From NCBI GenBank assembly GCA_020073645.1, contig JAIQET010000004.1, positions 1 to 64,000 on the forward strand: a stretch of DNA of 64,000 nt, read 5' to 3'. Both the position numbers and the translations under genes were made by a program. The notes beneath the pieces were generated by a model that saw only the letters and a program-made list of their open reading frames with translations, did no database searches and was not told the origin of the DNA. Origin of the DNA: Terriglobia bacterium. Its GTDB lineage: Bacteria > Acidobacteriota > Terriglobia > Terriglobales > Acidobacteriaceae. This document shows positions 5,012-28,468 of the stretch, in pieces (within the stretch, counting starts at the first letter, position 1; every line of letters begins with the position of its first letter).

Positions 5012-5698
5012 CTACGGCTGGTATGCCGCGGGCGGCAGGCCCGTAATTCTGATTCCCGAGTGGCCTTTGTGCCGGATGTTGAGGCCGATCAGCAGCGCCG
5101 TGACCTGCTCCAGGATGCGTGCGTTTTCCAGTTTGCCGCCATCGATGGCACGCACGCCAGGAATCTTCGCGGCCAGGGCCCGCGCGACGATGCCGGCCTC
5201 GGCATCGTCGCTGCAGACAAGTATGTCGCAGTCCACAGGGCCTTCTGCATTCAGCAGTTCCGCGGACGCATTCTGGAACGCTGCCACCACCGAGACTCCC
5301 TTGGGCACGATTTCCGCGGTTTCTTGTGCTGCGGAGCCTTGCCAGACTCCGAGCGTACGTGCAGCTCGGCCTCCGACGCTGGCCGCCAGCGGCACGGTGG
5401 CATCGATCACGATGCTCCCAGGCTGAATCGCCGGCTTGATGTGCTTCAGCAGATTGGCGTGGCCTTCAAAGGGGATCGTGAGAACCAGCAGGTTCGACTC
5501 TGCGCACGCGGCTGCGTTTTCCTCGCCCGACACCGGGGCGTTTCCTCCGACTCGCGCCTTGATCTTTGCGGCTGCATCCTGGGCGCGCTTCAGGTCGCGC
5601 GATCCGATGATCACGGTCTCTCCCGCCTGGGCCCAACGCAGCGCCAGGCCAAAGCCCTCCGGCCCGGTGCCGCCGAGGACGGCGATGGGGCGGCTCAT
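5012..5698 (-). CDS. F420-dependent NADP+ oxidoreductase (Fno/NpdG-like)
   Basis: N-terminal Rossmann IAVLGGTGPEGFGLALRWAQAGETVIIGSRD; last gene of cof operon. Confidence 0.9.
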   Translation of the reverse strand: MSRPIAVLGGTGPEGFGLALRWAQAGETVIIGSRDLKRAQDAAAKIKARVGGNAPVSGEENAAACAESNLLVLTIPFEGHANLLKHIKPAIQPGSIVIDATVPLAASVGGRAARTLGVWQGSAAQETAEIVPKGVSVVAAFQNASAELLNAEGPVDCDILVCSDDAEAGIVARALAAKIPGVRAIDGGKLENARILEQVTALLIGLNIRHKGHSGIRITGLPPAAYQP

Positions 5699-6927
5699 GC
5701 GAACTCCGGCTCGAAGGCTTCTTCCGTTGTCAATGTGTGGGGCTGCAACTTGATGTGGATGCGCGAGTAGGTCGTGTTGCGCTCGGCGGGAATGCGGCCG
5801 GCTTCCAGAATCAGCGACTGAAATTCTTCCGGACTGGTGTATTGCCCGGCGGTGGCTCCGGCTTCGCGCGAGATATTCTCTTCCATCAAGGTCCCCCCGT
5901 AATCATTCGCGCCCGCGTGCAGGCATAGCTGCGACAGGCGGCGATTGAGCTTCACCCACGAGACTTGAATGTTGTTGATGGCGCCTGCCAGCATCACCCG
6001 CGCAAGAGCGTGAATCTTGAGGTGCTCGGCCAGCGTGGGCCCGGGCCGCGAGAGCCCCTGTTGGAAGAGCAGTGTGTTCTGATGTACGAATCCCAGAGGC
6101 ACAAATTCGGTGAAGCCGCCACTCTCCTGCTGCATTTCGCGCAATAGCAGAAGCTGATTGACCCAGTGCGCAGAAGTTTCCACGTGGCCGTACATCAAGG
6201 TGGACGTGCTGCGGATGCCGCAGCGGTGGGCGGTGCGGATGACCTGCTTCCACTGTTCGGTGGAGAGCTTGTTGCGCGAGAGAACGAAGCGGACATCATC
6301 GTCGAGAATTTCCGCGGCGGTTCCGGGTAGCGTATCGAGTCCGTTGTCGCGCAGCATGCACAGGTAATCGTCGAGCGGCATGCCGGTGAGTTCCACGCCG
6401 TACACGATCTCCATGGGCGAGAAGGCGTGAATGTGCATGCCGGGCACGGCGTTCTTCACCGCGCGCAGGATGTCGCGGTAGTAAGACGAAGGCAGTCCGT
6501 GGGGCAAACCTCCTTGAATACAGACTTCGGTGGCACCCAGATCCCAGGCTTCGCGAGCTTTCTGAGCGACTTGCTCCAGGTTGAGAAAATAGGAGTCGGA
6601 TTCGCGCGGGCCACGGCTGAAGGCGCAGAACTTGCAGCCGACAAAACAGACATTGGTGAAATTGATATTGCGGTTGACCACATAGGTGACGAGATTTCCC
6701 GCCAGCTCCCGGCGCAGCGCATCGGCGGCAACCAGCAGGCCAACCAGATCGTCGCCTTCGGCGTTCGCCAGCAGCAGGCACTGCTCACGCGAAAGCGCGC
6801 CGCCATCCTGAGCGTCCATCACGCACTCAAGCGCGGTGCGCGCTTCAGGTGTCATCCGAGGTGCGACGTCCGGCCATTCCAGCGAGGGGAAGCTCTCCAG
6901 TTCCGATTGGGTTAGAGCACGGGCCAC
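5695..6927 (-). CDS. cofH: FO synthase subunit 2 (radical SAM, CofH)
   Basis: NRNINFTNVCFVGCKFCAF CxxxCxxC radical SAM motif, QGGLPHGLPSSYYRDILR, HAFSPMEI. Confidence 0.93.
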   Translation of the reverse strand: MARALTQSELESFPSLEWPDVAPRMTPEARTALECVMDAQDGGALSREQCLLLANAEGDDLVGLLVAADALRRELAGNLVTYVVNRNINFTNVCFVGCKFCAFSRGPRESDSYFLNLEQVAQKAREAWDLGATEVCIQGGLPHGLPSSYYRDILRAVKNAVPGMHIHAFSPMEIVYGVELTGMPLDDYLCMLRDNGLDTLPGTAAEILDDDVRFVLSRNKLSTEQWKQVIRTAHRCGIRSTSTLMYGHVETSAHWVNQLLLLREMQQESGGFTEFVPLGFVHQNTLLFQQGLSRPGPTLAEHLKIHALARVMLAGAINNIQVSWVKLNRRLSQLCLHAGANDYGGTLMEENISREAGATAGQYTSPEEFQSLILEAGRIPAERNTTYSRIHIKLQPHTLTTEEAFEPEFA

Positions 6928-6946
6928 AACTCCTCCATTGCACCAG

Positions 6947-7717
6947 TCAGCGAAACAGATCGTTGGCCGCCGGGCGGATCAGGTCGCGGGCGCTGCCCCG
7001 TCCCGGGCGATAACGGAATCCTCGAATGATACACGCTGGTGTGCGAGTTAGCTTGCCGCAGACCAGGCCGGCGGCGCAAGCCAGTTCATCGGCCACAGCA
7101 TCCACGCTGACGCGCAGTTGGTAACCGTGAGGGTCGCGGCGTCCGCGATCATCATGCAGAGGCTTCATGCCGGCCACCCCGATCGCGGCCTCGGTCAGGC
7201 CCTCGCGCCAGGGCCGCCCGAAAGTATCAGTGATGAGGACGGGGATCGAAAGTCGCAGACGTTTTTTCAGTTCGCGGTGCAGTTGCGCCGCCGAGCGGTC
7301 CGGATCTTCGGGAAGCAAGAGCGCGTGACGGCCACCGTCCACGTTGGAAACATCCACCCCGCTGTTCGCGCAGACCAGGCCGTGGCGGGTCTCGGTGATC
7401 AGAACGGTGCGCTTGCGGCGGACAATGCGCTTGCTCTGGGCGAGGGCCAGTTGGGTGACGCGCGCATCGAGATGGTGGCGGCGGGCCCAGGCGCGCAAAG
7501 CGGCAGACGGCTTGACCGTGTTCAGCGGTACGAGTTGCCCTTCCGCCTTGGAAACGATCTTGTGTTTCACGACGAGGATGTCGCCGCGAACCAGCGACAA
7601 CTCTTGATGCTTCAGGGCCTCCAGGAGTTTTTCGGCGACTGAGTCTCCGGGACGAACTTCGCCAGCAACGGGAATTGGAATAATTCGCAGCTCTTGACTC
7701 AGGTTCGGCGGGCTCAT
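6947..7717 (-). CDS. cofE: Coenzyme F420-0:L-glutamate ligase, single-domain (CofE)
   Basis: GDILVVKHKIVSKAEG, CANSGVDVSN, ITDTFGRPWREG motifs of CofE/FbiB N-domain; no nitroreductase-like C-domain. Confidence 0.93.
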   Translation of the reverse strand: MSPPNLSQELRIIPIPVAGEVRPGDSVAEKLLEALKHQELSLVRGDILVVKHKIVSKAEGQLVPLNTVKPSAALRAWARRHHLDARVTQLALAQSKRIVRRKRTVLITETRHGLVCANSGVDVSNVDGGRHALLLPEDPDRSAAQLHRELKKRLRLSIPVLITDTFGRPWREGLTEAAIGVAGMKPLHDDRGRRDPHGYQLRVSVDAVADELACAAGLVCGKLTRTPACIIRGFRYRPGRGSARDLIRPAANDLFR

Positions 7718-8371
7718 CTACTCGTTCACTGCCCGAGGGAGGTCTGTCAGGTCCCACTGCCGGACCAGTCGCTGGGTGCGGGTTTCGCCAGCGGCGGCGG
7801 CGAGTTGCCGCAGGTCCGATGGATTATCGATATCGAGCCCAATCCCGGACAGCGGCAGCACCACACACGGTTTCTGCGTCGCCTTCGCCGCTGCCAGATG
7901 CGGTTTGAAGCTGTCGTTGCCGAAGCGCAAGGGAAACAATCCCGCGGGACGTCGCCAGGCCGCGTTGGTGCCGCGGCCGTCGGCTGCCGGTACGAGCACA
8001 GAACCCTCGCTGGGTGCGAGCTTCAGAATTGTTTCCAGCTCCCAAGTCCGGATCAAGGGAATGTCGCCGGGGATGACCAGCGTGCTGTCTACTCCGCGCG
8101 ACTGGCAGACCTGCGTTGCCATCTCAATCGCATCGGTTTCGCTGCGGTTGACGTGGTCAGCAATCACCTCAAAATCGAAACGTTGTGCCAGATCGAGTGC
8201 AAAAGGGTCGCTGGTCACGACCACGACCTCCGGCCGGTTCGCCCAGGTGCCAAGGGTTTCGAGCACATCGAACAACATGGCGTGGGCGAGTTCCACGCGG
8301 CTGGCCTGGTCGAGCACCGCAGCCAGGCGTTGTTTGGCATTCGCGAGATTCTTGACCGGAACCAGGATCAT
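7718..8371 (-). CDS. cofC: Phospholactate/PEP guanylyltransferase (CofC/FbiD)
   Basis: MILVPVKNLANAKQRLAAVL...VIPGDIPLI; start overlaps cofD stop (ATGA at 8368-8371). Confidence 0.92.
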   Translation of the reverse strand: MILVPVKNLANAKQRLAAVLDQASRVELAHAMLFDVLETLGTWANRPEVVVVTSDPFALDLAQRFDFEVIADHVNRSETDAIEMATQVCQSRGVDSTLVIPGDIPLIRTWELETILKLAPSEGSVLVPAADGRGTNAAWRRPAGLFPLRFGNDSFKPHLAAAKATQKPCVVLPLSGIGLDIDNPSDLRQLAAAAGETRTQRLVRQWDLTDLPRAVNE

Positions 8372-9339
8372 GAGGGATCCGAGGCCTTGTGAGCTTTGCT
8401 TTCCCCGTAAACCACGGACAGGACCGTCCGCGCCAGATTCGCCTTGTCGTCGGAAGTCCGCATAATCGTGGAGGCACAATACACCCGCAGGCCGGAGCGC
8501 TTCAATTCCTCAGCGGCCTGTGCATCCCGGGTGTCTGCAATCAGTATGTCGAGGAAGTCGTGATACGCCTGGGCGACTCCCGCGATTGAGACCGGAAGCC
8601 CCTGCGCAGCCATTAAGACATCAGCGGGACCGGAGACGGCAGCGCCCGCGACGATCGGCGTAACCGCAACCACGGGCGCCTGGGTTTGCTTTAAAGCCTC
8701 TCGTATGCCCGGCACCGCGAGAATGGGCCCAATGCTGGTTACGGGATTACTCGGAGCCAGCAGCACCACACTCGCTGATAGGATGGCATCTACAACGCCA
8801 GGTGCAGGCTGGGCCTCAGCGGCACCCGCGAAACGCACCGACTCCACCGGGTCCTGATACCAGCGTTGGACGAAGTACTCCTCGAAGCTGAGCTCCCCAA
8901 TCGGAGTCTTGACCCTGGTTTCCACTCGCGAGTCGCTCATGGGCAGAATGGTCGCCTGCACCCCCAGCTTGGCGGCAATCTCCAAGGTTGCTTCGGTCAA
9001 CGTTTTTCCCTTGGCGAGCAATCGGGTACGCAGCAGGTGGACCGCGAGGTCGCGATCGCCCACCTGAAACCAGATCGGCTGGCCCAACTGTCCCATGGCC
9101 TGCAGGCAGAAAAAGGTGTCACCCTTGACGCCCCAGCCGCGCTCCTTGCTAAGCAGCCCGGAGAGCACGTAGGTGATCGAGTCCAGGTCGGGCGAGACGT
9201 ACAGGCTCCACCACTCCAGATCGTCTCCGGTGTTCACGATGATGGTGAGTTCCTGCGGCGCGACCACCTGGCGCAGGCCGTCGATAAACTTGGCGCCTCC
9301 TGTTCCGCCGGTGAGTACGACGATCATGCAGCCCTCCAC
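8368..9339 (-). CDS. cofD: 2-phospho-L-lactate transferase (CofD/FbiA)
   Basis: VVLTGGTGGAKFIDGLRQ, NTGDDLEWWSLYVSPDLDSITY, LAPSNPVTSIGPIL. Confidence 0.95.
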   Translation of the reverse strand: MEGCMIVVLTGGTGGAKFIDGLRQVVAPQELTIIVNTGDDLEWWSLYVSPDLDSITYVLSGLLSKERGWGVKGDTFFCLQAMGQLGQPIWFQVGDRDLAVHLLRTRLLAKGKTLTEATLEIAAKLGVQATILPMSDSRVETRVKTPIGELSFEEYFVQRWYQDPVESVRFAGAAEAQPAPGVVDAILSASVVLLAPSNPVTSIGPILAVPGIREALKQTQAPVVAVTPIVAGAAVSGPADVLMAAQGLPVSIAGVAQAYHDFLDILIADTRDAQAAEELKRSGLRVYCASTIMRTSDDKANLARTVLSVVYGESKAHKASDPS

Positions 9340-10520
9340 GCGTAGCCCTCGCGGTCCGCGGCGGCTTTGACTCTTTCCGACAACAGGCCGGGGCGCGCGG
9401 TCACGGCGGGCACGAACTCAGGATAAACCGGGAGGCGCGGCCGCAGGTTCTGTCCCTTCGCTTCGGTTATTGACTTCAGTTGTTCCAGATGCGGCCAGGG
9501 CTTCTCAGGATTGATGAAATCGGGGGTAAGCGGTGAGACGCCGCCCCAGTCGTTGATGCCTGCGTCCAGCAACTCATCATGATACGGTGCTGAGAGATTG
9601 GGCGGTGCTTGGATATTGATGTCCGGCATGAGCAGACGCGCCACGGCCACAGTGCGCAGCATTTCGCCGCGCGTGGGCTCGGGCCAGTCTCGCATCGGGA
9701 TGTCGGGCTTGACGCGGAAATTCTGAATGATGACCTCCTGGATGTGGCCGTACCTTCGGTGCAGATCGCGGATGGCCAGCAAGGTGTCCACGCGATCGTC
9801 CAGCGTTTCACCGATCCCGAGCAGCAAGCCGGTGGTGAAGGGAACTCCCTGCTTGCCGGCTTCTTCGACGGTGCGCAAGCGCTTGGCCGGGACTTTGTCG
9901 GGCGCGTTATCATGCGCCGCGCCGGGCGCCAGCAGTTCGGCACTGGTAGTTTCGAGCATGAGCCCCATGCTGGGCGAGACAGCCGCGAGCCGCGCGATCC
10001 ACTCCGCGCTGAGCAAGCCGGGATTGGGATGCGGCAACAGCGTGGTCTCGCGCAGCACCAACTCGCACATGGCTTCCAGGTAGTGAAGAGTGGAGTTGTA
10101 CCCCAGATGCCGCAGGGTGGCGCGCATCTCGGGAAATGCCAACTCCGGTTTGTCCCCCAGGCTGAACAACGCTTCCGTACATCCCAGCTTCTCGCCGGCC
10201 CGCGCCACCCGCAGCACTTCCTCGGGAGTCATGGTGTGGGCGCCGGGCTCGCCGGGATCACGGCGAAAGATGCAATAACCGCAATAATCGCGGCAAAGAT
10301 TGGTCAGCGGGAGGAAGACCTTGCGCGAGTAGGTGATGACGGCCGGCTTGAACCGCTCCTTGGCCTCTACCGCAGCAGCGAGGAGGGCCGGAAGTTCGTC
10401 GTCGGCCACCCGAATCAGGCGGCAGGCCAAGTCTCGCGATAGTGGCAAACCGGAGCGAAGCTCCTCCAGTTGCGAGCCCAGCGACGGCCGTGGTGTTCCC
10501 GCGATTTGCGCTACAGCCAA
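9324..10520 (-). CDS. cofG: FO synthase subunit 1 (radical SAM, CofG)
   Basis: LTNLCRDYCGYCIFRRDPG CxxxCxxC; FGLLLGIGET-like region; first gene of cof operon. Confidence 0.93.
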   Translation of the reverse strand: MAVAQIAGTPRPSLGSQLEELRSGLPLSRDLACRLIRVADDELPALLAAAVEAKERFKPAVITYSRKVFLPLTNLCRDYCGYCIFRRDPGEPGAHTMTPEEVLRVARAGEKLGCTEALFSLGDKPELAFPEMRATLRHLGYNSTLHYLEAMCELVLRETTLLPHPNPGLLSAEWIARLAAVSPSMGLMLETTSAELLAPGAAHDNAPDKVPAKRLRTVEEAGKQGVPFTTGLLLGIGETLDDRVDTLLAIRDLHRRYGHIQEVIIQNFRVKPDIPMRDWPEPTRGEMLRTVAVARLLMPDINIQAPPNLSAPYHDELLDAGINDWGGVSPLTPDFINPEKPWPHLEQLKSITEAKGQNLRPRLPVYPEFVPAVTARPGLLSERVKAAADREGYAWRAA

Positions 10521-11682: not shown

Positions 11683-14600
11683 ATGGAGCCCTACGTCAGC
11701 TTTAACAGCAGGGGGAGAAGTTTCGGCGTGCTGAGATGGGTGCTGTTTCTGGTCACGTTGGCGGCCGTAGTGGTTCCACTACATGGGCAGGTCACGGTGA
11801 CCATCCAAGGGCGTGTCTATGACACGACAGGTGCGGCGATCTCCCAGGCCACGATCACGGTGGTGAACCCGGCAACGGGCTTCTCCCGCGCCACAACCGC
11901 AAATTCCACGGGGGATTACCAGATCTCTTCGCTTCCCGTGGGCGACTATACGGTGACGGCCGAGAAAGCCGGCTTCCAAAAGCAGGCCAAGAAAGTTCAC
12001 CTCGATATTGGCGGCAGTGGCACGGTGAACTTCAATCTGGCCGTGGGGCAGGTAGCCCAGGAGGTCACGGTGCAGGACGTGGGCGAAGTGGCGGAACCCA
12101 CGCGCACCATGGTGAGTTCGGTCATTGACGAGCACAAGATCGAGAACCTGCCGGTCAACGGACGGCAGTTCATCGACTTTGCTCTGCTGGCGCCGGGAGT
12201 GACCGTCGGTGACACCACCTCCGGCAGCACCGACGTGATCATCGAACCCGTGACTAAGCTCTCCTTCGCGGGACAGAACATCCATTACAACTTCGTGGCG
12301 GTGGACGGCGCCGACAACATGTCCACGGCGTCGGGTATTCAGAAAACGACGCCATCCCAGGAAGCGGTGCAGGAGTTCCGCGTCATCAACAGCGACTACA
12401 GCACGGAGTTCGGCCGGGCGGTGGGCGGCATTGTGAATGTCATCACCAAGAGCGGCACCAACAACCTGCACGGATCGGCGTACGAGTTCTTCCGCAACGA
12501 CGCGATGGACGCCAAGAGCCCGTTGGCGGGGGAGGGATTCAATAAGCTGCGCCAGAACCAGTACGGCGCTACCCTGGGTGGCCCGCTGCAGAAGGACAAG
12601 ACGTTTTACTTCCTCAACTATGAAGGTCAGCGGCACGTGGAGTCGCCGTTCTACAACATCACCGTGCTCGACAACTTGGCGGCCATCAACAACGTAAAGA
12701 CCACGGTGTTCGGCTTGCCGGCAGAGAACTTGCACGTCAACCGCGTCATCAATTACGACGACGGCCTGGTGAAACTCGACCACACCTTCAACGACAAGCA
12801 CTCGGCGTTTGTGCGCTACTTCATCAACGACCAGCGCTCGACCAACCTTTCGCCGCTGAATGACGGTTTCGATCTACCCTCGGGATTCAAGAACAACGCC
12901 TTCCGCGACCAGTCGGTGGTGGGCGATCTGGTTTCGGTGTTCTCGAGTTCACTGGTGAACGAAGCCCGGGTGCAGTATTCGCACCGTTTCTTTGACTTCC
13001 CAACCGTGAGCACGCAGCCCCACTTGGAAGTTTCGAATGTGTTCACCCTGGGCGTGAACCGCGGGAACCCGGACTTCTACGAGGAAGGCCGGTTCGAAAT
13101 TGTGGACAATGTGACCAAGACCTGGGGAAAGCACACGATTTATTTCGGCGGGGACTTCAACCACGTCAACACAAAGGAGTCGTTTCCGCTGTTCTATCCC
13201 TTTGAGGCAGACTTCGCCAGCCTTAACGCGTTCCTGGGTACGGACGGTGCGGTAGCGGGCTGCGAGGGCCAGTGCCCTGATCCCTTCGTGATTTTCATGG
13301 AAAAGTTTGACAGCACCCAGAATTTCAATGAGGGGACCATCGACCGCGCTGTGTACCAGGGGGGCGCCATTTCCTCGGCGATTCGCAACCAGGCCAAAGG
13401 CGAACTGGGGCACACCTACGAAGGTGCGTTCATTCAAGACAAGTGGCGGGTTTCGTCGAACTTCACGCTAAACTACGGCTTGCGCTGGGAGGGCGAGACC
13501 TGGCCGAGTAACGCGCTCAATAACATCACCAAGAACTTCAGCCCCCGGGTGGGATTCTCTTACGCACCCGGTGGGCATTCAGGTCTGGTACTACGCGGCG
13601 GGGCTGGGATTTTTTACGGAACCATTCCTTCCCCGTTGCTGATGTGCCAGATCCCTTCGTGCGGTGGGACCATCGGACCCTTTCCCGGCCGCGCGGCCAA
13701 AGAGGATTCGTTGGACGCGAAGACGCGCATATTCGCCTTTGCCAGTTCGCCGGACCTCAACAACCTCGCCCTTACGTCGCTGCTGCTGGATGGAACCTAT
13801 CCCAACGCTACCCCCTGTCCGTTTGGAGGCTTCCTCGCACCTGACTGCGGATTCTACGGCGACTCAGTCATTGTCCGCTTCGCCCAGGACCATAAGCCGC
13901 CGTATGGGGTGCAAGCCAGCTTCGGCGTTGAGTTCCAACCCTTCAGGGATTCGACCCTGGAAATCACCGGAATGCACGTGCGTGGGGTCCACCTAGGCAG
14001 CTTCTGGAACGTGAACCAACCCAACCAGAATGGATGTCCGGTGACTGCACATGACTCGCAAGGAGACGTCGGCCAGAAGTTCGACTACCACGTAGTCTTT
14101 GTTCCCGGTGACTGTACGACGGTATCGCCTTTCCCCGGAACCCGGCCTCTGCCGCCCGGATCGCCGACCGTCGCGGTGTACTTCGAAGCCGATTCCAAGT
14201 GGGATTCGCAATGGGACGGCTTGCTGATCAACTTTACCAAGCGCGTGAGCCACCACGTCGGGTACGGGTTGAGCTACACCTGGTCGAAGGGCATCGACAA
14301 CGGCCCGAACCCGAGTTTCGTGCTGATCCCGCAGGACAGTTGCTGCTTCAACCGCGAGCGGGCCATTTCTTCCGATAACGTGTCCCACCGCTTTGTGGGT
14401 AACGCTACCATCTACGGCCCGCAGCACATGAACCCGATCCTGAATGACTGGCAGCTCAGCACCATCGTGAGCCTGCAAACCCCCAACTACTTCACCAAGT
14501 TTTCCGGGTCTGACACGAATGGCGACATTTTCGGCAACAACGATCGTGTAGGCCTTGAAGCGCGGAACACTTTCAAGGGTGACACCTATGACAACGTGGA

Positions 14601-14868
14601 CATGCGTGTGTCGCGCACCTTCAACATCACCGAAAAGACACACCTGGAGGCGATTGCAGAAGGGTTCAACCTCCTCAATACGCTGAACGTCCACTACTAC
14701 AACACGGCATACGGGGCGGCGGACTTCTGTCCGTTTAATCCGGCGGCTCCAGGGTGTGCGGGTGCGCCAGCCTTCTTTCGTGAGGGCTCGCCGAACAAGT
14801 CGTACGGCACGCCGCGGTCGATCTTCAACCCGCGGCAGATCCAGCTCGCGCTGCGCTTGACCTGGTAA
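11683..14868 (+). CDS. TonB-dependent receptor with carboxypeptidase-regulatory-like N-domain (Oar-like)
   Basis: Signal peptide, GRVYDTTGAAISQATITVVN, plug domain LPVNGRQF, C-terminal beta-barrel ending in LRLTW. Confidence 0.93.
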   Translation: MEPYVSFNSRGRSFGVLRWVLFLVTLAAVVVPLHGQVTVTIQGRVYDTTGAAISQATITVVNPATGFSRATTANSTGDYQISSLPVGDYTVTAEKAGFQKQAKKVHLDIGGSGTVNFNLAVGQVAQEVTVQDVGEVAEPTRTMVSSVIDEHKIENLPVNGRQFIDFALLAPGVTVGDTTSGSTDVIIEPVTKLSFAGQNIHYNFVAVDGADNMSTASGIQKTTPSQEAVQEFRVINSDYSTEFGRAVGGIVNVITKSGTNNLHGSAYEFFRNDAMDAKSPLAGEGFNKLRQNQYGATLGGPLQKDKTFYFLNYEGQRHVESPFYNITVLDNLAAINNVKTTVFGLPAENLHVNRVINYDDGLVKLDHTFNDKHSAFVRYFINDQRSTNLSPLNDGFDLPSGFKNNAFRDQSVVGDLVSVFSSSLVNEARVQYSHRFFDFPTVSTQPHLEVSNVFTLGVNRGNPDFYEEGRFEIVDNVTKTWGKHTIYFGGDFNHVNTKESFPLFYPFEADFASLNAFLGTDGAVAGCEGQCPDPFVIFMEKFDSTQNFNEGTIDRAVYQGGAISSAIRNQAKGELGHTYEGAFIQDKWRVSSNFTLNYGLRWEGETWPSNALNNITKNFSPRVGFSYAPGGHSGLVLRGGAGIFYGTIPSPLLMCQIPSCGGTIGPFPGRAAKEDSLDAKTRIFAFASSPDLNNLALTSLLLDGTYPNATPCPFGGFLAPDCGFYGDSVIVRFAQDHKPPYGVQASFGVEFQPFRDSTLEITGMHVRGVHLGSFWNVNQPNQNGCPVTAHDSQGDVGQKFDYHVVFVPGDCTTVSPFPGTRPLPPGSPTVAVYFEADSKWDSQWDGLLINFTKRVSHHVGYGLSYTWSKGIDNGPNPSFVLIPQDSCCFNRERAISSDNVSHRFVGNATIYGPQHMNPILNDWQLSTIVSLQTPNYFTKFSGSDTNGDIFGNNDRVGLEARNTFKGDTYDNVDMRVSRTFNITEKTHLEAIAEGFNLLNTLNVHYYNTAYGAADFCPFNPAAPGCAGAPAFFREGSPNKSYGTPRSIFNPRQIQLALRLTW

Positions 14869-14943: not shown

Positions 14944-15507
14944 ATGAGTGTTGCCCAGGCAGAGTTTCGTGAGGCGATGGGTTGTTTTACCACCGGGGTC
15001 ACGGTCATCACGGTGGATTACCAAGGCGAAGTGCACGGCATGACCGCGAACGCGTTCACTTCCGTCTCGCTCGATCCCCTTCTGGTGCTGGTTTGTGTGG
15101 ATCATCGGGCGCAGACGCATGCTCATTTGCACGCAAGAAAGCGGTTTGGCGTGAATGTGCTGGCCGAGGACCAGCGGGCGATCTCGGAACATTACGCGCG
15201 TCCCGACCGGAACCACGAGCGCGCGGAAGCGGAGGCGGGGGCGCGCTTCGAGCGCACTCCGCACGGGACCCCGGTACTGCGTGGCGCCTTGGCGTACCTG
15301 GAGTGCCGGTTGCACACCGCGCAGGACGCGGGGGACCACACCATCTTTATCGCGGAAGTGGAGGATGTGCTAGTGCGCGAAGGTAATCCTCTGCTGTACT
15401 TTCAGGGGAAGTATCGGGTGCTCGGGATGGCGAAGGAAGACTCAGAGACAGGATCCGCGGGCAGGGCAGAGCGCGGACTGGCGAAGCCGGCGTTGCGGAA
15501 AGGCTAG
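14944..15507 (+). CDS. Flavin reductase family protein (HpaC-like FMN-binding split barrel)
   Basis: MGCFTTGVTVITVDYQGEVHGMTANAFTSVSLDPLLVLVCV. Confidence 0.92.
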   Translation: MSVAQAEFREAMGCFTTGVTVITVDYQGEVHGMTANAFTSVSLDPLLVLVCVDHRAQTHAHLHARKRFGVNVLAEDQRAISEHYARPDRNHERAEAEAGARFERTPHGTPVLRGALAYLECRLHTAQDAGDHTIFIAEVEDVLVREGNPLLYFQGKYRVLGMAKEDSETGSAGRAERGLAKPALRKG

Positions 15508-15515
15508 GAGAGACC

Positions 15516-16598
15516 ATGCGATTTGGCATTTATTGCGAAGTCCAGACGCCGCCCGGCAAGCCGCACTACGACATGATCTGGGAGATCATGCGGCAGATCG
15601 AACATGCCGACGAATCCGGTTTCGACGTGTACTCGGTGATTGATCATCACTTTTTCCAGAAATTCTCCATCTCGGCCAATCCGCTGGCCATGTTTGCCGC
15701 GGCCGCGCAGCGGACCAAGCGCATCCGCTTCCGTACCGCGCTCCACACTCTGCCGCTGGAAAACCCCATGCGCCTGGCCGGCATGATCGCCGAGACCGAC
15801 ATTCTTACCAACGGCCGGCTGGAATGCGGCCTGGGCCGGGGACACGCCTGGTTGTTTGCCCCTTCTGCCATGCCACTGGAGGAGAGCCGGCCCCGCTACA
15901 ACGAGGCCATCGACATTCTGCAGCTTGCCTTTACCCAGGAGAAGTTCTCCTATGACGGCCGGTTCTACAAATTGAAGGACGTGAGCGTGGTGCCGCGACC
16001 GCTGCAGAAGCCGCATCCCAAGTTTTACACCGGCGGCACCAGCGACATCACTTACGAGATGGCTGGGGTCAAAGGCTGGGGCATTTTCGTACCACCGCTG
16101 TTGCCGTGGAAAGTGCTGGAAGCGCCGCTGAACCTCTACAAGAAAGCTTGTACCGAACACGGCCACCAGCCCGACATCGTGTATATCCGTCCCGTGTACA
16201 TCGACGAAGATGAGCGACAGATTCGAAAAGAAGTCGAGCAGGCTCTGCTCAATTTTCTGGCCTTCAACGCGTCGCCCGCTGAGTCCCTGCAGGGCGAAGA
16301 GAAAAAGGCGGAATTGCGCGCCAAGGGGTATGGCTTCTATGCCAGCGGAGCGCTGGAGTCGCTCACCAAGCTGACCTATGAGCAGATCGTGGAGCAGGAA
16401 ATCGGGTTCATAGGAACGCCCGACAAGGTGATCCGGCAGGTGCGTACCCTCACCGAGAAAGGCGGCATCGGAGAGTTGGCAATCGTTGCCAACTTCGGTG
16501 GCCTGGAACACTGGAAAAGCATCAAGACGCAATACATGTTTGCCAAACACGTGATGCCGGCGTTTCGCCCGAAGGCGGAAGCCAAGGCGGCGGACTAA
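15516..16598 (+). CDS. LLM-class flavin-dependent monooxygenase (luciferase-like)
   Basis: Luciferase-like fold signature motifs (IEHADESGFDVYSVIDHHF, GRLECGLGRGH); directly downstream of flavin reductase. Confidence 0.9.
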   Translation: MRFGIYCEVQTPPGKPHYDMIWEIMRQIEHADESGFDVYSVIDHHFFQKFSISANPLAMFAAAAQRTKRIRFRTALHTLPLENPMRLAGMIAETDILTNGRLECGLGRGHAWLFAPSAMPLEESRPRYNEAIDILQLAFTQEKFSYDGRFYKLKDVSVVPRPLQKPHPKFYTGGTSDITYEMAGVKGWGIFVPPLLPWKVLEAPLNLYKKACTEHGHQPDIVYIRPVYIDEDERQIRKEVEQALLNFLAFNASPAESLQGEEKKAELRAKGYGFYASGALESLTKLTYEQIVEQEIGFIGTPDKVIRQVRTLTEKGGIGELAIVANFGGLEHWKSIKTQYMFAKHVMPAFRPKAEAKAAD

Positions 16599-16600
16599 CC

Positions 16601-17773
16601 ATGGCAGTGTGGGAACCACCACCAGGACCTCTTGGACGCGGGCAGCGCGGCCCGGCTGGCGCTGCAGCGCGCGTGATGCCGCAGGATACGCCTGCCAACG
16701 TCGCGGCGACATTCCCGGCTATGGGAGCGCGACGGCTGCTGGTGTTTGGCGGGATTGCGCTCATCGCGGGCGGCATGCTCTTCGGTGACATTTTTGCGGT
16801 GTTCGTTCTTCATCAGAACGGTGGACGCACCGGTGAGGCATTGCTTGCGGCCGCTCACGCGGTGGCGGCGCAGAATCCCTCTGGGGTGAAGGCCGCGTTT
16901 GACCAGATCGGCAGTTCGCTGGAAGACCGCGGCACCAAAATAGACACCCACGTGCACATGACTGACGCCGGTTATTTGGCGCTGTTGCTGGCGCTGATAC
17001 AGCCGTACGTGGCGCTCTCGGCGGCGCGCAAGAAGTTTCTAGCCAAGCTGTTCTTGCTGGGCGGGGTGTTTCTGCCGGTAGGGATCTTTCTGATTCATTA
17101 TGTCGGACTGGCCTACAGCCCGTTCCCGGTCATTGGATGGGCGAGCATCCTGGCGGACTCCGCGGGAGCTCTGCTGATCACCGCGCTGATCGGCGAAGCG
17201 TGGGGGTTGTGGAATCACTTTCGCAGCATGCGCGTGGGCGCGGTAGAGGCGGAGCTGCCGGAGGACCGAAGCTGGGAACGGCGCACCCTGCTGGCGGGTG
17301 GGACGCTGCTGGTTCTGTTCGGGTTCCTGCACGGGGCGTGGTATGCGGGCGCCATGCTTTACGAACACGAGGCCCGCGAGACCAGGATTCTGAATGCAAT
17401 GCTGGACGCTGCCACAGCCAATGCGGAAGCCCGCCCGTCGGTGAACGATTACGGCGCCTTGCAGGCCGAGAAGGCGGTCAACATCGCCGCCCATTCCCAC
17501 CTCATCGAATTCGGGCTGCTGGCAATTCTGCTCTCCTTCGTGCAGCCTTACGTGTTTCTGGATGCAGAATGGAAGCGGTGCTGGGTCAATTTGTTGTTAG
17601 CAGGATCGGTCATTCTCCCGGTGTTTGTCCTGCTGGAACTCAGGATTGGCCTGCTGGCGGGAGGTATTGCCGATATTGGCGGCCTGATGGTGATCATTGC
17701 CCTGGTCGGGATGCTGGTAGGCGTGTTGCGCTACAGCGGCAAGCTGGATGCCGAGCCTGGAGCCACCCCATGA
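16601..17773 (+). CDS. Uncharacterised membrane protein, two homologous ~4-TM modules with HxH motif
   Basis: Two internal repeats: RRLLVFGGIALIAGGMLFGDIFAVFVLHQ...DTHVHM and RRTLLAGGTLLVLFGFLHGAWYAGAMLYEHE...AAHSHLI; alternative start at 16676. Confidence 0.75.
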   Translation: MAVWEPPPGPLGRGQRGPAGAAARVMPQDTPANVAATFPAMGARRLLVFGGIALIAGGMLFGDIFAVFVLHQNGGRTGEALLAAAHAVAAQNPSGVKAAFDQIGSSLEDRGTKIDTHVHMTDAGYLALLLALIQPYVALSAARKKFLAKLFLLGGVFLPVGIFLIHYVGLAYSPFPVIGWASILADSAGALLITALIGEAWGLWNHFRSMRVGAVEAELPEDRSWERRTLLAGGTLLVLFGFLHGAWYAGAMLYEHEARETRILNAMLDAATANAEARPSVNDYGALQAEKAVNIAAHSHLIEFGLLAILLSFVQPYVFLDAEWKRCWVNLLLAGSVILPVFVLLELRIGLLAGGIADIGGLMVIIALVGMLVGVLRYSGKLDAEPGATP

Positions 17774-18258
17774 GCGCGGCGAGCAAACTTCTCATCTTCG
17801 GTGGAATCGCCCTGGCGGCGTTCGGCATGCTGTATGGCCTGCACTACGCGGTGTTTGTGGAGCACCAGACGCTCGACAGCATGGGGGGCTCGCTGGCCAC
17901 GGCTTTCACCAATGCCGCTGATCGTCATCTGCCGGAGGCCCACGCTGCCGTCGCAGCCTACGGAGAGACCAAGTATGACTATGTCCGCCAGGTAGACGTG
18001 CACTCGCACTGGATCGGCTTGGCCATGCTGATGATCGTTTTGGGCGTGGCAATCGATGGTACGGCGTTCGGCGAGCGCATCCGGTTTTGGATCGCGCTGA
18101 GCTTGCTGATCGGCGCGGTGGTCTTTCCTTTGGGGGTGATCTTGCAGACCGAAAGCCACGGGAGTGCGTTTGCTTCAGGCTTGGCCATTGCAGGTTCTGC
18201 CCTGGTGATTGTGGCACTCGCAGCGCTGGTAGTTGGCTTCGCGCGGCAAAACGCATGA
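17770..18258 (+). CDS. Uncharacterised membrane protein, third copy of the same module
   Basis: SKLLIFGGIALAAFGMLYGLHYAVFVEHQ...VDVHSHWIGLAM; ATGA overlap with upstream gene; ORF-track frame opens earlier but homology begins here. Confidence 0.75.
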   Translation: MSAASKLLIFGGIALAAFGMLYGLHYAVFVEHQTLDSMGGSLATAFTNAADRHLPEAHAAVAAYGETKYDYVRQVDVHSHWIGLAMLMIVLGVAIDGTAFGERIRFWIALSLLIGAVVFPLGVILQTESHGSAFASGLAIAGSALVIVALAALVVGFARQNA

Positions 18259-18357: not shown

Positions 18358-19251
18358 ATGTATCCCCGAGCATTTCACTATCACCGCGCCAGTTCGCTCA
18401 AGGAAGCGGTCACCATGCTTTCGCAGCTGGGTGATGACGCCAAGTTGCTGGCTGGCGGCCAGAGCCTCATTCCGCTGATGAAGTTGCGCTTCGCCAACCC
18501 GCAACACCTGGTGGACCTGAACTTTGTTCCCGGCACGTCTTACATCAAGGAAGAAGGGGGCGCGCTGCGATTCGGTGCTTTGACCCGGCACGCGGAGATC
18601 GAGAACTCGGCGACAGCGGCGAAGATTCCCATCCTCCACGATTGCGCCGCTGGAATTGCCGACGTGCAGGTGCGCAACCGTGGGACCATCGGCGGGTCGC
18701 TGGCGGAAGCCGATCCTAGCGGCGACTGGGCCGTGGTCCTGATAACGCTGGCGACGGAAGTGCGCTGTCTTGGGAAGAAATCCGAACGCACGGTGCGGTT
18801 CGCCGACTTCATCAAAGATGCCTACACTACGGCGCTCGCCCACGACGAACTGGTCAGCGAAGTGGTGGTAAAGAAGCCGCCCAAGGGCAGCGGTGGAGCA
18901 TACATCGCCTTCAAGCGCTCGGCGCCGGTGTATCCCACGGCGAGCGCTGCGGTGCAGCTCACCCTGGACGGCGATGTCTGCAAAGATGCGGCGATCGCGC
19001 TGGGCTGTGTCGGCCTGACCGCCATCAAAGCCCGGGACGCCGAAGCCGCTCTGCGCGGGCAAAGGATCACGGACAAGACCATCGCGGCCGCCATGGAAGC
19101 AGCCCGGGCCGCTGCCGATCCGCAATCTGACATGCGCGGTTCGGCGGACTACAAGCGCGCCCTGGTCGGTGCGCTGGTGAAACGAGCAATCGAGATTGCT
19201 GTGCGTCGGGCTCGCGGCGAGCAGGTCGAGGTGGGCCACATCTATGCCTAA
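18358..19251 (+). CDS. Xanthine dehydrogenase/CODH-family FAD-binding subunit (CoxM/CutM-like)
   Basis: LLAGGQSLIPLMKLRFANPQHLVDL, VRNRGTIGGSLAEADPSGD. Confidence 0.93.
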   Translation: MYPRAFHYHRASSLKEAVTMLSQLGDDAKLLAGGQSLIPLMKLRFANPQHLVDLNFVPGTSYIKEEGGALRFGALTRHAEIENSATAAKIPILHDCAAGIADVQVRNRGTIGGSLAEADPSGDWAVVLITLATEVRCLGKKSERTVRFADFIKDAYTTALAHDELVSEVVVKKPPKGSGGAYIAFKRSAPVYPTASAAVQLTLDGDVCKDAAIALGCVGLTAIKARDAEAALRGQRITDKTIAAAMEAARAAADPQSDMRGSADYKRALVGALVKRAIEIAVRRARGEQVEVGHIYA

Positions 19252-19783
19252 GAAAGTTGTGAAGCGAAAGCGAGCTCCAAAGCCCAAGCCGGCACCGGAA
19301 GCCGCGATCACAGCAGTTCCGATAAGCGTGAAAGTGAACGGCAAGACGCACTCGCTGACGGTGGAACCGCGCACGCTGCTGGTGGAGTTGATCAGGGAAA
19401 AACTTGATCTGACCGGCACGCACGTGGGCTGCGATACCACCTACTGCGGCGCCTGCACCGTGCTGATGAACGGCGCGGCGGTCAAGTCCTGCACCATGTT
19501 CGCGGTGCAGGCGGATGGCGCAGAGCTTCTCACCGTCGAGGGCCTGGAAAAAGATGGCCAGCTCCATCCCATCCAGAAGGCGTTCGGCGATTCCTACGGG
19601 TTGCAGTGCGGCTATTGCACGCCGGGGTTAATGCTGTCCGCTTTCCAGTTGCTTTCACACAACCGCCAGCCGAGCGAAAAGGACATACGCAAGGCCATTG
19701 CTGGAAACACCTGCCGGTGTACCGGCTATCAAAACATTTTCAAGGCGATTCAGTTGGCCGCACAGAACGTGAAAGGGGTCTGA
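19244..19783 (+). CDS. (2Fe-2S)-binding subunit of Mo-hydroxylase (CoxS/CutS-like) with basic/Pro-rich N-terminus
   Basis: GCDTTYCGACTVLMNG, CGYCTPGL, NTCRCTGYQN; start at MPKKVV overlapping upstream stop. Confidence 0.94.
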   Translation: MPKKVVKRKRAPKPKPAPEAAITAVPISVKVNGKTHSLTVEPRTLLVELIREKLDLTGTHVGCDTTYCGACTVLMNGAAVKSCTMFAVQADGAELLTVEGLEKDGQLHPIQKAFGDSYGLQCGYCTPGLMLSAFQLLSHNRQPSEKDIRKAIAGNTCRCTGYQNIFKAIQLAAQNVKGV

Positions 19784-19786
19784 AGT

Positions 19787-20272
19787 ATGGCGATCAAGTT
19801 TGACGGCCAGTTCGAGGTCCAGCGCACGCCGGAAGAGGTGTTTGCGTTCCTCACCGATCCGAATAAGTTTGCTCCGCTCCTGCCGGAATTCCAGGGTATG
19901 TCAGCGCAGGACGCCACGCACTTCACCGTGAAAGTGAAGGTGGGGGTTTCTTACATCAAGGGAGTTGCGGAAGTAAAGATGGAACTCGCGCAAGCCGAGA
20001 ATCCCAGGCGCGCGCAGTACAAGGGGCAGGGAAGCGTAGCCGGCGGCGGCGTTTCGCTGACCGCTGGATTCGATCTGGTGCCGGCAAACGGCGGCACCAA
20101 GGTGGCGTGGCAAGGCGAGGCCCAGGTCTTTGGCCGCCTGACTTCCGTTGCGGGTGGCTTGCTTCAGCCGCTCGGCAAGAAGAATGTACAGAAGTTGATT
20201 GACGCGTTGCAGGCGGCACTGAAGGGTCAGGCAGGTATCATGCCGAGCGCAGCCAAGACCGCAGAAGGTTGA
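19787..20272 (+). CDS. CoxG/SRPBCC family protein
   Basis: FDGQFEVQRTPEEVFAFLTDPNKFAPLLPEFQ; typical CoxG start; position within Mo-hydroxylase operon. Confidence 0.9.
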   Translation: MAIKFDGQFEVQRTPEEVFAFLTDPNKFAPLLPEFQGMSAQDATHFTVKVKVGVSYIKGVAEVKMELAQAENPRRAQYKGQGSVAGGGVSLTAGFDLVPANGGTKVAWQGEAQVFGRLTSVAGGLLQPLGKKNVQKLIDALQAALKGQAGIMPSAAKTAEG

Positions 20273-20284
20273 GGAGCAAGATTC

Positions 20285-22744
20285 GTGAGTTCCGAGAATA
20301 ACAAGAAGAATTGGGTGGGCAAACCTCTGCCGCGCAAGGAGGAGGACCGCCTGCTGCGCGGGCGGGGCAAATTTGCTGACGACATCAAAATGCGCGAGAT
20401 GCTGTATCTGCGTTTTGTGCGTTCTCCGTACGCCCACGCCAGGATCGTCAGCATTGCCACCTCGGACGCGGAAGCCGTTGCTGGCGTGGTGTGCACTCTG
20501 ACCGGAGCGGAGATTCTTCCGCAGGTGCAGCCCTTCATCGAAATCGCTCCTGAACCCGGCGGAAAAATCAAAGATTATCCGCTGGCGATCTCCAAAGTCC
20601 GCTATCAAGGCGAGCCAGTCGTCGCGGTGATCGCGGAGTCACCCGGCATCGCCGATGATGCCGCCGAACTTGTTCAGGTCGAGTATGAAGCGCTCGACGC
20701 GGTGGTGGATGCAGAAGAAGCCTTGAAGGACGCGAACATCCTCCATGAGGAAGCTGGCACCAACCGGGTTTGGAATGGTGTGTTCGAATACGGCGACGTG
20801 GAGAAGGCGTTTAGCGAAGCCGCTTCCGTCGTCCACATCGACCGCCTGCATTTCCATCGCTTCTCCAGCACGCCGCTGGAGGCCAACGTCGTCATTGCGC
20901 AGTGGAATCCCAAGGATGAGCGCATCTATTACTGGTGCAACAATTCCTTCCCCTCGTTTGCCATTCAGTTCTTGTCCGCGCACCTGAACGTGCACATCGA
21001 TCGCATCCGGGTGGAGACGTCCGATATTGGCGGCAGCTTCGGTATCAAGATCACCAGCTACCCGCAGATGGCGGTGTGCGCGCTGGCCTCAAAGAAGGCT
21101 GGGGGACGTCCCATCAAGTGGGTAGAGACACGCTCCGAGCACAACACCTCCAGCGCCCACGGCAATGAGCGGACCTTCCGCGACACGCGGGTCGCGCTCG
21201 ATAAGGATGGCGTCATCACAGCCATCGCGTCACGACATATTGACGACTGCGGTGCTTACCCGCGCTACGAGCCGCTGGGATGTGTCATCTGGTCGCAGGT
21301 GGTCCCCGGGGTGTATCGCTTCAAGAATACGCGGATCGACTTTACCCAAACGGTAACCAACAAGTGCCCGGTGGGCCCAAACCGCGGCTATTCGCGCATG
21401 CAACATCTGTGGTTCCTGGAGCGGGTGGTGGATATCTGCGCGCACGAACTGGGAATTCCGGCCGACGAGATGCGTCTGCGCAACTACATTCGCCCGGAGG
21501 AGTTTCCCTACACCACGCCGAACGGCTGTGTCTATGATTCCGGCAACTATCCGAAGATGCTGCAGGTCGCGAAGGGTCTGATCGGCTGGGACGAATGGAA
21601 GAAGAAGCGGGCTGCGGCCCGCAAGCAGGGCCGGCTGATCGGCATGGGCATTGGCACCACGCTCGACTCCGGCACCAACAACTTTGGCCAGTCGCAGATT
21701 GTGAACCCGGGCGCACCGTTTTCCGGGAACTCCCAAGGGGCGAACTGCAAGCTGGATATCTACGGAGAAGTCGTAGTCGCAGTCGGTTCCTGCCCCCAGG
21801 GACAGGGACACGAAACCACCGCGGCGCAAGTCGTCGCCGATGTGCTGAACATTCACCCTGATCTGATTACGGTGCGAACTGGCTTCGACACCGAGCGCAA
21901 CGTGCACACCGGCTTCTCGGGAACCTACGCCAGCCAGTTTGCGGTGTCGGGACTGTCCGCCGTGCACGGTGCCGCGCAAAAGCTGAAGGCTGAGATGAAG
22001 CGCCTGGCCGCGTTCGTGCTGGAAACCAAGGAAGATGACATCGAATTTGGCACGGGGGCACAAGGCCCCGAGCTTCGCGCCAAGAGCACGGGCAAGTCCA
22101 TCAACTACTGGGGACTGGCCAACATTGTCAACGTGAACAGCGCGGTGCTTCCGGTGGAGATGCATGATGTCACGCTGAACTGCCGCTACATCTGGCGCGC
22201 CCCGTTCAAAGTGCCCGACAAGGTAAAGAAGTACGGCAACCTTACGCTGACCTACGCTTCCCAGCTTCACATCGCGGTGATAGAGATCGATCGCGATACG
22301 TTCATCCCACGCATTCTCGACTACGTGGCGGTGGACGATTGCGGCACAGTAATCAATCCGGCGATCGTGGAAGGCCAGGTCTATGGCGCGACCGCACACG
22401 GTATCGGCGCGGCCCTGATGGAGAGCTGCGTGTACGACGCGGTGGGCAACATGCTGACCAGCACCTTCAGCGACTACACGCCGATCACGGCCGTGAACAT
22501 GCCCAAGGTGAAATACGGCCACATTGAGACGCCGTCGCCGCACAGCTACAGCGGCGCCAAAGGCATGGGCGAAGGAGGCGCCGCGCCCATCCACACGATT
22601 TCGGCGGCGTTGCAGGACGCATTGTTTGCGGAAGGCATCATTGTGGACGATTCGTTCAACAATGCCGACAGCCTGTTCCGCGCGATGGTGGGGAAAGAGA
22701 TTGGGCAGGCCGCCAAACTGGTAACCGTCGAGCGGCGGCCGTAG
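20285..22744 (+). CDS. Xanthine dehydrogenase-family molybdopterin-binding large subunit
   Basis: VGKPLPRKEEDRLLRGRGKFADD, ETSDIGGSFGIK, GMGEGGAAP (catalytic Glu); active-site loop reads GPNRGYSRMQ. Confidence 0.93.
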   Translation: MSSENNKKNWVGKPLPRKEEDRLLRGRGKFADDIKMREMLYLRFVRSPYAHARIVSIATSDAEAVAGVVCTLTGAEILPQVQPFIEIAPEPGGKIKDYPLAISKVRYQGEPVVAVIAESPGIADDAAELVQVEYEALDAVVDAEEALKDANILHEEAGTNRVWNGVFEYGDVEKAFSEAASVVHIDRLHFHRFSSTPLEANVVIAQWNPKDERIYYWCNNSFPSFAIQFLSAHLNVHIDRIRVETSDIGGSFGIKITSYPQMAVCALASKKAGGRPIKWVETRSEHNTSSAHGNERTFRDTRVALDKDGVITAIASRHIDDCGAYPRYEPLGCVIWSQVVPGVYRFKNTRIDFTQTVTNKCPVGPNRGYSRMQHLWFLERVVDICAHELGIPADEMRLRNYIRPEEFPYTTPNGCVYDSGNYPKMLQVAKGLIGWDEWKKKRAAARKQGRLIGMGIGTTLDSGTNNFGQSQIVNPGAPFSGNSQGANCKLDIYGEVVVAVGSCPQGQGHETTAAQVVADVLNIHPDLITVRTGFDTERNVHTGFSGTYASQFAVSGLSAVHGAAQKLKAEMKRLAAFVLETKEDDIEFGTGAQGPELRAKSTGKSINYWGLANIVNVNSAVLPVEMHDVTLNCRYIWRAPFKVPDKVKKYGNLTLTYASQLHIAVIEIDRDTFIPRILDYVAVDDCGTVINPAIVEGQVYGATAHGIGAALMESCVYDAVGNMLTSTFSDYTPITAVNMPKVKYGHIETPSPHSYSGAKGMGEGGAAPIHTISAALQDALFAEGIIVDDSFNNADSLFRAMVGKEIGQAAKLVTVERRP

Positions 22745-22823: not shown

Positions 22824-23792
22824 ATGAAGCGGGTTTGCATTGTCGGGTGCGGGGCAATCGGGAGCCTTTACGCGGCGCATCTGGCGCGCGCTACCGAAGT
22901 GTGGGCTTTCGTTCGCCGGGAAGACCATGCCCGGGCTCTCAATCGCGAAGGGCTGAGAGTCTCGGGTAAACACGAATTTCAAGTGTCTTTGAAAGCGACA
23001 ACCCGGCCCGGCGAGATTCCAGAGTGCCGCCTTGGGATCGTCGCGACCAAGGCGACGCAAGTGGAAGAGTCGATGACGGCGGTTGGCAGCCGATTCGATC
23101 AGGGCGCAGTCATTTCCGCGCAGAATGGGCTGGGGAGCGAAGAGATCATCGCCGCCCACACCCGTGGTCAGGTGATTCGGGGCACGACTTTCATGAGCGG
23201 CACACGGCATAGCGACACGCACGTCCAGTTGGAGCTGGACACCCCCACTTGGATCGGCCCCTTTGAGCCGCGCCACACGCCGTATGCGCTGGTGAAACAG
23301 GCCGCCGACCTGATTGTTGCCGGCGGGCTGAAGGCAGAAGCGTTGCAGGACGCGCGTCCGGCGCAGTGGTCCAAGCTGATTTTTAATGCGTCGGTGAATG
23401 GCGTTTCCGCTTTGACCGGTTTGCCACATTCGCCGCATTTCGCGGACGAGTCGCAATTTCCCGATCTCGGACACCTGCTGCACGCGCTGATCGACGAGGG
23501 AAAGAACGTGGCGAAAGCGGCAGGCGTGGAACTTCCCGAAGACCCGTGGGAGATGAACAAGATTGGGGCCATGACAAATCATCCGACGTCGATGTTGTAC
23601 GACGTCCGCAACCAGCTCCCGACGGAAGTGGATTTCCTGAGCGGCGCGATTGCGCGCGAAGCGGAACGCGCCGGTGTGCCTGCGCCACTGCATACCACCG
23701 TTTACCGGCTGATCAAAGGGAAGGAAGCGTCGTGGACCTTCAAGGATGAGAACCGGCCGGTGGCGGCGTCTGGGAAAGCGAGCGGACATTGA
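22824..23792 (+). CDS. 2-dehydropantoate 2-reductase-like (ApbA/PanE family), copy 1
   Basis: VCIVGCGAIGSLYAAHLARA, WSKLIFNASVNGVSAL. Confidence 0.9.
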   Translation: MKRVCIVGCGAIGSLYAAHLARATEVWAFVRREDHARALNREGLRVSGKHEFQVSLKATTRPGEIPECRLGIVATKATQVEESMTAVGSRFDQGAVISAQNGLGSEEIIAAHTRGQVIRGTTFMSGTRHSDTHVQLELDTPTWIGPFEPRHTPYALVKQAADLIVAGGLKAEALQDARPAQWSKLIFNASVNGVSALTGLPHSPHFADESQFPDLGHLLHALIDEGKNVAKAAGVELPEDPWEMNKIGAMTNHPTSMLYDVRNQLPTEVDFLSGAIAREAERAGVPAPLHTTVYRLIKGKEASWTFKDENRPVAASGKASGH

Positions 23793-23801
23793 GCGCAGAA
23801 C

Positions 23802-23826
23802 GAGACGCGGCAAGCTGCATCTCTAC
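23802..23826. repeat. Diverged copy of palindromic repeat family B
   Basis: GAGACGCGGCAAGCTGCATCTCTAC = reverse complement GTAGAGATGCAGCTTGCCGCGTCTC. Confidence 0.65.
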
Positions 23827-23844
23827 CGAAGATTGAATGGGACT

Positions 23845-25032: not shown

Positions 25033-25051
25033 GAACCGAGAACTGACAACT

Positions 25052-26317: not shown

Positions 26318-26345
26318 GGCAAAAGAGCTACGCTTGAGGGAATAG

Positions 26346-27488: not shown

Positions 27489-27528
27489 CGTCTCGCTCTG
27501 TGACACCAAAGATTGAGGGCAAGACCGA

Positions 27529-28452
27529 ATGAGGATTTGTGTGATCGGCTGCGGTGCGGTGGGCAGCCTGTTTGCTGCGCATCTTGCCAAGGCAGGCGAA
27601 GCCGAGGTCTGGGCGTATGACGTCTGGAAGGAGCATACGGACGCCATCCGCAAGCATGGCCTGCGGCTCTCCGGCGCCGCGGAGTTCACCGCGCAGGTGA
27701 ACGCGACCTGCGATCCCAAAGAGCTGCCCCGCTGCGACTACGGGATCGTGGCCACCAAGGCTATCCACACCCGCAGCGCCATCGCGCAAGTTGCTCGTAT
27801 CTTCGACGAGCGCAGCGCCGTGTGCTCGGTGCAGAACGGAGTGGGCAACGAAGAAATCATCGCCGAGCACGTGAAGCACGTCATTCGTGGCACTACGTTT
27901 CCCGCCGGCCATCCGGTTGCTCCCGGACACGTGGGCTACGACATCAAGGGCGACACCTGGATCGGCCCCTTTGAGCCCACGCATACGGCGATGGAAAGAG
28001 TGGAAGAACTGGCTGGCCTGATGACGCGCTCGGGGATGAATACCATCGCGCTGAAGGACGCGCGCGGAGCGCAGTGGACCAAGCTGATTTTCAATGCGTC
28101 CACCAACCCGGTGGGCGCGCTGACCCTGCTGCATCACGGAGCCGCCACCCGGTTCGCGCCAACCGGGCAGCTATTCAACGACCTGATCTCCGAGGGAGAG
28201 GCGGTCGCAAAGAAGCTGGGAATCGAACTGCACGGCGATCCCCGGCAACTGGTGCAAAAGGGCGCCAACGCCCCCGGAAAGCACAGAGCCAGCATGCTGC
28301 AGGATGTGCTCGCCAAGCGGCAGACAGAAGTGGACTTCATGAATGGGGCCATCGTGCAGTGGGGCGAGAAAGTTGGAGTGCCCACGCCGCTGAACAAAGC
28401 ACTCTGGCAATTGATCAAAGGCCTAGAGCATGCGTGGAAAGATCCGGACTAA
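27529..28452 (+). CDS. 2-dehydropantoate 2-reductase-like (ApbA/PanE family), copy 2
   Basis: ICVIGCGAVGSLFAAHLAKAG, WTKLIFNASTNPVGAL; clear paralogue of 22824-23792. Confidence 0.9.
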   Translation: MRICVIGCGAVGSLFAAHLAKAGEAEVWAYDVWKEHTDAIRKHGLRLSGAAEFTAQVNATCDPKELPRCDYGIVATKAIHTRSAIAQVARIFDERSAVCSVQNGVGNEEIIAEHVKHVIRGTTFPAGHPVAPGHVGYDIKGDTWIGPFEPTHTAMERVEELAGLMTRSGMNTIALKDARGAQWTKLIFNASTNPVGALTLLHHGAATRFAPTGQLFNDLISEGEAVAKKLGIELHGDPRQLVQKGANAPGKHRASMLQDVLAKRQTEVDFMNGAIVQWGEKVGVPTPLNKALWQLIKGLEHAWKDPD

Positions 28453-28468
28453 GCTCGAAGCAGTTTCC

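Follow-up and report, generated by a model that had tools for sequence, protein, structure and literature searches.

The window, a 64,000-nucleotide stretch of DNA from an uncultured soil acidobacterium, contains two plus-strand genes built from three copies of one membrane module. The first gene (16601..17773, 390 amino acids) holds module 1 (16721..17260; TM1, an extramembrane helical hairpin and TM2-TM4) and module 2 (17270..17758), both delimited by homology and by a low-confidence structure model, and the second (17770..18258, 162 amino acids) holds module 3 alone. Both open reading frames are as described in the original prediction, which placed two homologous modules in one gene and a third in the next. 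A shorter start is possible for the two-module gene, for example at 16679, and the MAVW... N-terminus of its product is common to loci L001-L003 only. The two genes overlap in an ATGA stop/start (17770..17773), and in the ten orthologues inspected this junction is ATGA, GTGA or near-adjacent; such an overlap would likely couple the translation of the two genes.

Homology of the modules above alignment background had been set beforehand as the point to be decided, and both shuffling and profile comparison place it far beyond chance. Pairwise identities are 57/161, 55/160 and 53/152; z scores come to 12-14 with plain shuffling and to 10.6-12.2 when the shuffling preserves the hydrophobic pattern, and none of 1000 shuffles reached the real score. 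Profile-profile comparison gives E values of 5e-26 (modules 1 and 2), 2e-22 (1 and 3) and 2e-16 (2 and 3). In a tree every module groups with its own orthologues, which indicates that the triplication predates all sampled genomes. The orthologue set comprises 17 loci, or 51 modules, and the close orthologues all come from Terriglobia, Acidobacteria or Acidobacteriaceae metagenome-assembled genomes. Intact module sets occur in 9 of 61 relatives, that is, in only part of the phylum; among 396 genomes drawn phylum-wide five have any match, two of them single partial or weak ones. One genome, G312, carries a single module-3-like reading frame (L037:1507-1938) that lacks the first half of TM1 and lies directly after the stop codon of a TonB receptor gene. 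Its truncation and position make it probably a deletion remnant, so it is not counted as evidence for a free-standing homotrimer.

The most conserved feature of the modules is an HxH motif, found at 16949..16957 in module 1 (H117 and H119 of the reading frame), 17492..17500 in module 2 (H298 and H300) and 18001..18009 in module 3 (H78 and H80), all on the plus strand. It had been proposed for each module and proves invariant in 51 of 51. A second His, placed after TM1 in all three modules (FVLHQ, LYEHE and FVEHQ), stands up in modules 1 (H71, 16811..16813) and 3 (H32, 17863..17865), where it is invariant in all 17 loci, but not in module 2, where the equivalent residue (17360-17362) is Tyr in 17/17. 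The His of LYEHE lies two residues after the aligned column and is Q or L in three of the 17, so these histidines are not equivalent. Conservation in orthologues, on which the original prediction had staked itself, thus holds for HxH and fails in part for the TM1 His of module 2; since that module lacks it, the description of paired histidines is only partly right. Other positions also differ between modules. At the end of TM3 module 1 carries another invariant His (IHY), near which modules 2 and 3 have an invariant Glu and Gln; the Asp before HxH in modules 1 and 3 (DxHxH) gives way to Ala in module 2; and invariant basic residues precede HxH in modules 1 and 3. For these two modules the invariant set includes H, D, H and H (H...DxHxH), and, judged by helix offset, an estimated 6-8 residues along the hairpin (about 10 angstrom) separate the TM1 His from HxH.

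Structure prediction, from alignments of 11 sequences, gives a confident model for module 3 (pLDDT 91) with four helices at residues 3-50, 54-97, 102-129 and 133-161. The first two make up a long hairpin projecting from the membrane and the other two are transmembrane, and the two-module protein is modelled in the same layout at low confidence (pLDDT 61). The N-terminus, the TM2-TM3 loops and the C-termini have flanking positive charges, and by the positive-inside rule the hairpins, with HxH, are predicted to lie on the periplasmic side. A Foldseek search of the PDB with the module 3 model lists two best-fitting solved folds, neither with a significant E value: styrene oxide isomerase (SOI, StyC; 8pnu, probability 0.96, TM scores 0.56/0.59, E 0.51) and the MAPEG protein mPGES-1 (probability 0.82, TM scores 0.59/0.64). 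The two-module model returned no usable match, as expected at a pLDDT of 61. MAPEG proteins share a four-helix trimeric membrane fold with this layout, and they are glutathione enzymes without haem. The modules have no Pfam match to MAPEG (PF01124), and MAPEG matches are absent from the window genome and 40 relatives. Ni-hydrogenase-type cytochrome b (PF01292), DUF420 and DoxX likewise gave no Pfam match and HHalign scores at background.

That the modules belong to no named family, as the original prediction had it, agrees with searches of Pfam, NCBIfam and PDB sequences, in which neither the modules nor their profile matched anything above noise. Profile comparison with the SOI superfamily tells more. 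SOI is a trimeric membrane enzyme that binds ferric haem b at its subunit interfaces through H58, with N64 and Y103 positioning the epoxide, and the authors of its structure found no substantial structural relatives by DALI (PMC11374702). In the Rhodococcus opacus enzyme neither the H57A nor the H57C variant retains haem or activity, and R111 is a probable contact of a haem propionate (PMC12502698). Because StyC sequences are too few for a convincing profile match, those found in plasmid records were joined with SOI-like proteins gathered from acidobacterial genomes in a 13-member profile. Against it the 51-module profile aligns over 145 collinear columns with a probability of 96.1, an E value of 3.1e-9 and a score of 61.1 (65.2 in the reverse comparison). 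HHalign E values refer to single comparisons, so the argument is carried by decoys: 150 class-preserving shuffled profiles have a mean score of 12.9 and a maximum of 20.95, reversed profiles score 14.2 and 14.7, and the real membrane families DoxX, Ni_hydr_CYTB and DUF420 score 11-18, with one outlier at 24. Circularly rotated profiles were dropped as decoys, since part of the true alignment persists in them. Restricting the SOI side to StyC and the closer SOI-like group leaves a probability of 94.2 and a score of 52, and StyC alone gives a probability of only 38; the signal needs the intermediate acidobacterial sequences.

Aligned to the full superfamily profile, each module separately places the first His of HxH on the haem ligand H58. 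G13 and G24 of SOI also match, as does P76 in modules 1 and 2. From this profile and residue evidence the modules are very probably homologues of the SOI superfamily. Are they styrene oxide isomerases? The features expected at the level of the superfamily, profile similarity above membrane background and the ligand His, are present, and two expected of StyC itself are absent: the N64 position is A, F or L, and the propionate Arg position (R112; R111 in R. opacus) is A, P or unaligned. The Y103 position is ambiguous: some alignments put I or V there, and for module 1 others put the Tyr of the IHY motif. For these reasons the modules are not taken for SOI itself; they look like a new, triplicated and diverged branch of the superfamily. 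With StyC (PDB 8pnu, 8pnv and 30tw) they share a four-helix membrane module of similar length, collinear over some 145 profile columns, the His at the start of TM2 and glycines in TM1 and TM2. Unlike StyC, which is encoded by one gene for a homotrimer, they occur as three diverged copies in two genes, have HxH in place of HxG, so that the second His has no SOI counterpart, and insert a long hairpin between TM1 and TM2; and where haem and isomerase activity are established for StyC, the modules are described here from sequence and predicted structure. Literature searches turned up no account of an acidobacterial SOI or of an SOI in fused or triplicated form.

The acidobacterial SOI-like proteins (genomes G208, G394, G615, G625, G579, G571 and G307; loci L049:1393-1974, L050:1405-1953, L061, L062, L064, L065, L067 and L068), most with AHLEGxxNG, apparently represent an unannotated wider SOI family. 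They are collinear with the modules, carry the His at the same position and supply the bridging profile, but consist of a single module and keep N64. In G208 and G394 (L049 and L050) they adjoin genes for FAD-type monooxygenase-like proteins. A different set of 148-residue, four-helix-like proteins with the motif HVHGN occurs in G412 and G449 (L038:1336-1782 and L059). These share HVHG at the start of TM2 and match the modules weakly (E 6e-4 in its genome; HHalign probability about 67), but have no SOI profile link (probability 0.6) and another neighbourhood.

The genes around the modules suggest a catabolic setting. Upstream, on the plus strand, lie a TonB-dependent receptor-like gene (11683..14868), which adjoins the modules wherever the locus extends that far and is their most constant neighbour, a flavin reductase gene (14944..15507; PF01613, with an E of 4e-38 to the StyB model, well below that model's cut-off) and a luciferase-like oxidoreductase gene (15516..16598; PF00296), found beside most orthologues. 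Downstream, on the same strand, are the Mo-hydroxylase genes CoxM (18358-19251), CoxS (19241-19783), CoxG (19787-20272) and CoxL (20285-22744), together spanning 18358..22744, whose best models, below cut-off, are glyceraldehyde dehydrogenase beta, gamma and alpha. The combination of a flavin reductase and an aldehyde-oxidising enzyme parallels styABCD, although F420 genes and a Mo-hydroxylase are not part of the StyC setting, and this styrene-like order is not universal, because the luciferase-like gene is absent beside the modules of L008-L010, L048, L130 and L132. The Cox genes are absent beside those of G026 and G428, and in G428 and G004 the modules adjoin genes for a Mo enzyme of the DMSO-reductase family that also has FeS and NrfD subunits. 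These genes lie on the minus strand at L047:9048-13562 and L133:355-4409, with large subunits 78% identical and best NCBIfam models, far below cut-off, for thiosulfate, arsenate and related reductases. LigB-type and UbiD-type genes near the modules of G026 and G428 are a pointer to aromatic substrates. Further along the window (22824-33493) are two ApbA/PanE-like reductases, three M24 creatinase/prolidase-like proteins, an M20 peptidase, a second luciferase-like protein and, on the opposite strand, an HMGL-like and FAA-hydrolase pair.

Divergent from the module operon, on the minus strand, runs a complete-looking F420 biosynthesis operon (5012..10520) with CofG, CofD, CofC, CofE, CofH and an F420:NADP oxidoreductase. 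Among loci long enough to show the region, most, like the window, have F420 biosynthesis genes adjoining the modules. In the 61-genome set, CofC is present in 9 of 9 module-bearing genomes, and 14 of the 52 others give strong matches to it (Fisher p 4.7e-5, a value that ignores relatedness); in one genome, G015, the gene lies in two parts at contig ends. Luciferase-like hydride transferases are widespread in F420 producers (PMC8498797). With this operon next door, the neighbouring oxidoreductase, which had been read as a flavin monooxygenase, may use F420 instead.

The reading that best accounts for the locus, at a probability of about 0.5, is a triplicated SOI-superfamily pseudo-trimer that carries haem b in a catabolic pathway. 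The two-module protein and its coupled one-module partner would assemble 1:1 with pseudo-threefold symmetry, like three chains of SOI; this assembly is moderately probable by analogy, and the three modules per operon, which match a trimer, and the gene overlap are suggestive of it. The first His of each HxH would then bind haem b where modules meet, close to the periplasmic face of the membrane, the side on which SOI H58 also lies, giving up to three haem sites per complex. With the invariant HxH aligned on the SOI ligand, haem binding is plausible, and it is favoured to about the same degree as the trimer. Of the cofactors the original prediction had suggested for its histidines (metal, haem or quinone), haem thus gains ground, even if the proposed pairing is incomplete. 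At the ferric haem a hydrophobic substrate might undergo Lewis-acid isomerisation or a related reaction; such isomerase-type chemistry is a tentative suggestion drawn from the SOI analogy, and the reaction and substrate are speculative. The pathway would comprise the TonB receptor, the F420- or flavin-linked luciferase-like enzyme and the Mo enzyme of aldehyde-oxidase type, with the modules handling a hydrophobic intermediate in the membrane upstream of the last, much as styrene monooxygenase, SOI and phenylacetaldehyde dehydrogenase act in styrene breakdown.

Could the modules carry electrons instead? The original prediction had cast them as an electron-transfer partner of the adjoining oxidoreductases, and a membrane haem b carrier or quinone-reducing anchor fed by the Mo-hydroxylase or the luciferase-like enzyme would suit their membrane location, the possible haem sites in three modules and the conserved proximity of Mo enzymes belonging to two unrelated families. 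However, the Mo-hydroxylase comes with a CoxG gene of its own and the G428 enzyme of DMSO-reductase type with its own NrfD, and G026 retains the modules in the absence of neighbouring Cox genes. Isomerase-type proteins are the nearest relatives identified, and each module has one superfamily-conserved ligand His, with the two residues of HxH on a single helix, which is not the usual bis-His geometry. Such a role is therefore unlikely, and the proposed partnership is not upheld.

The same histidines might serve a metal, with HxH, the TM1 His and the Asp forming a mononuclear Cu, Zn or Fe site at the outer membrane surface, or a site for metal transport or sensing. The invariant H, D, H and H of modules 1 and 3 would suit such a site, and helices 1 and 2 could be drawn close by the long hairpin, but module 2 keeps HxH with Tyr for the TM1 His and Ala for the Asp, the neighbours are catabolic rather than metal-homeostatic, and the profile similarity is to a haem family; a metal site is distinctly unlikely. 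The poor conservation of SOI active-site residues, together with the constancy of the TonB receptor gene, could also indicate a membrane partner that retains the SOI fold with no cofactor or catalysis and acts in lipid, substrate or TonB-linked uptake. This is very doubtful, as the complete conservation of HxH, in 51 of 51 modules, would be difficult to account for if the motif had no chemical role. A haem-bearing SOI-superfamily pseudo-trimer, the preferred reading, could be taken further, to a pseudo-heterotrimeric enzyme that arose by triplication, fusion and coupling and performs new Lewis-acid or redox chemistry in F420-linked catabolism, a proposal that leans towards the doubtful.

If the relationship is true, SOI would be one branch of a broader haem-binding four-helix membrane family and not the unique enzyme as which it has been described. 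A natural triplication with module-specific changes (His or Tyr after TM1, Asp or Ala before HxH, and His, Glu or Gln at the end of TM3) would reveal which site does what, and the modules could offer a new membrane haem catalyst. For the acidobacteria themselves, the two genes may encode a membrane haem protein in three parts that acts in a breakdown pathway linked to coenzyme F420, which, if true, would tie a previously unannotated family to F420-linked catabolism.
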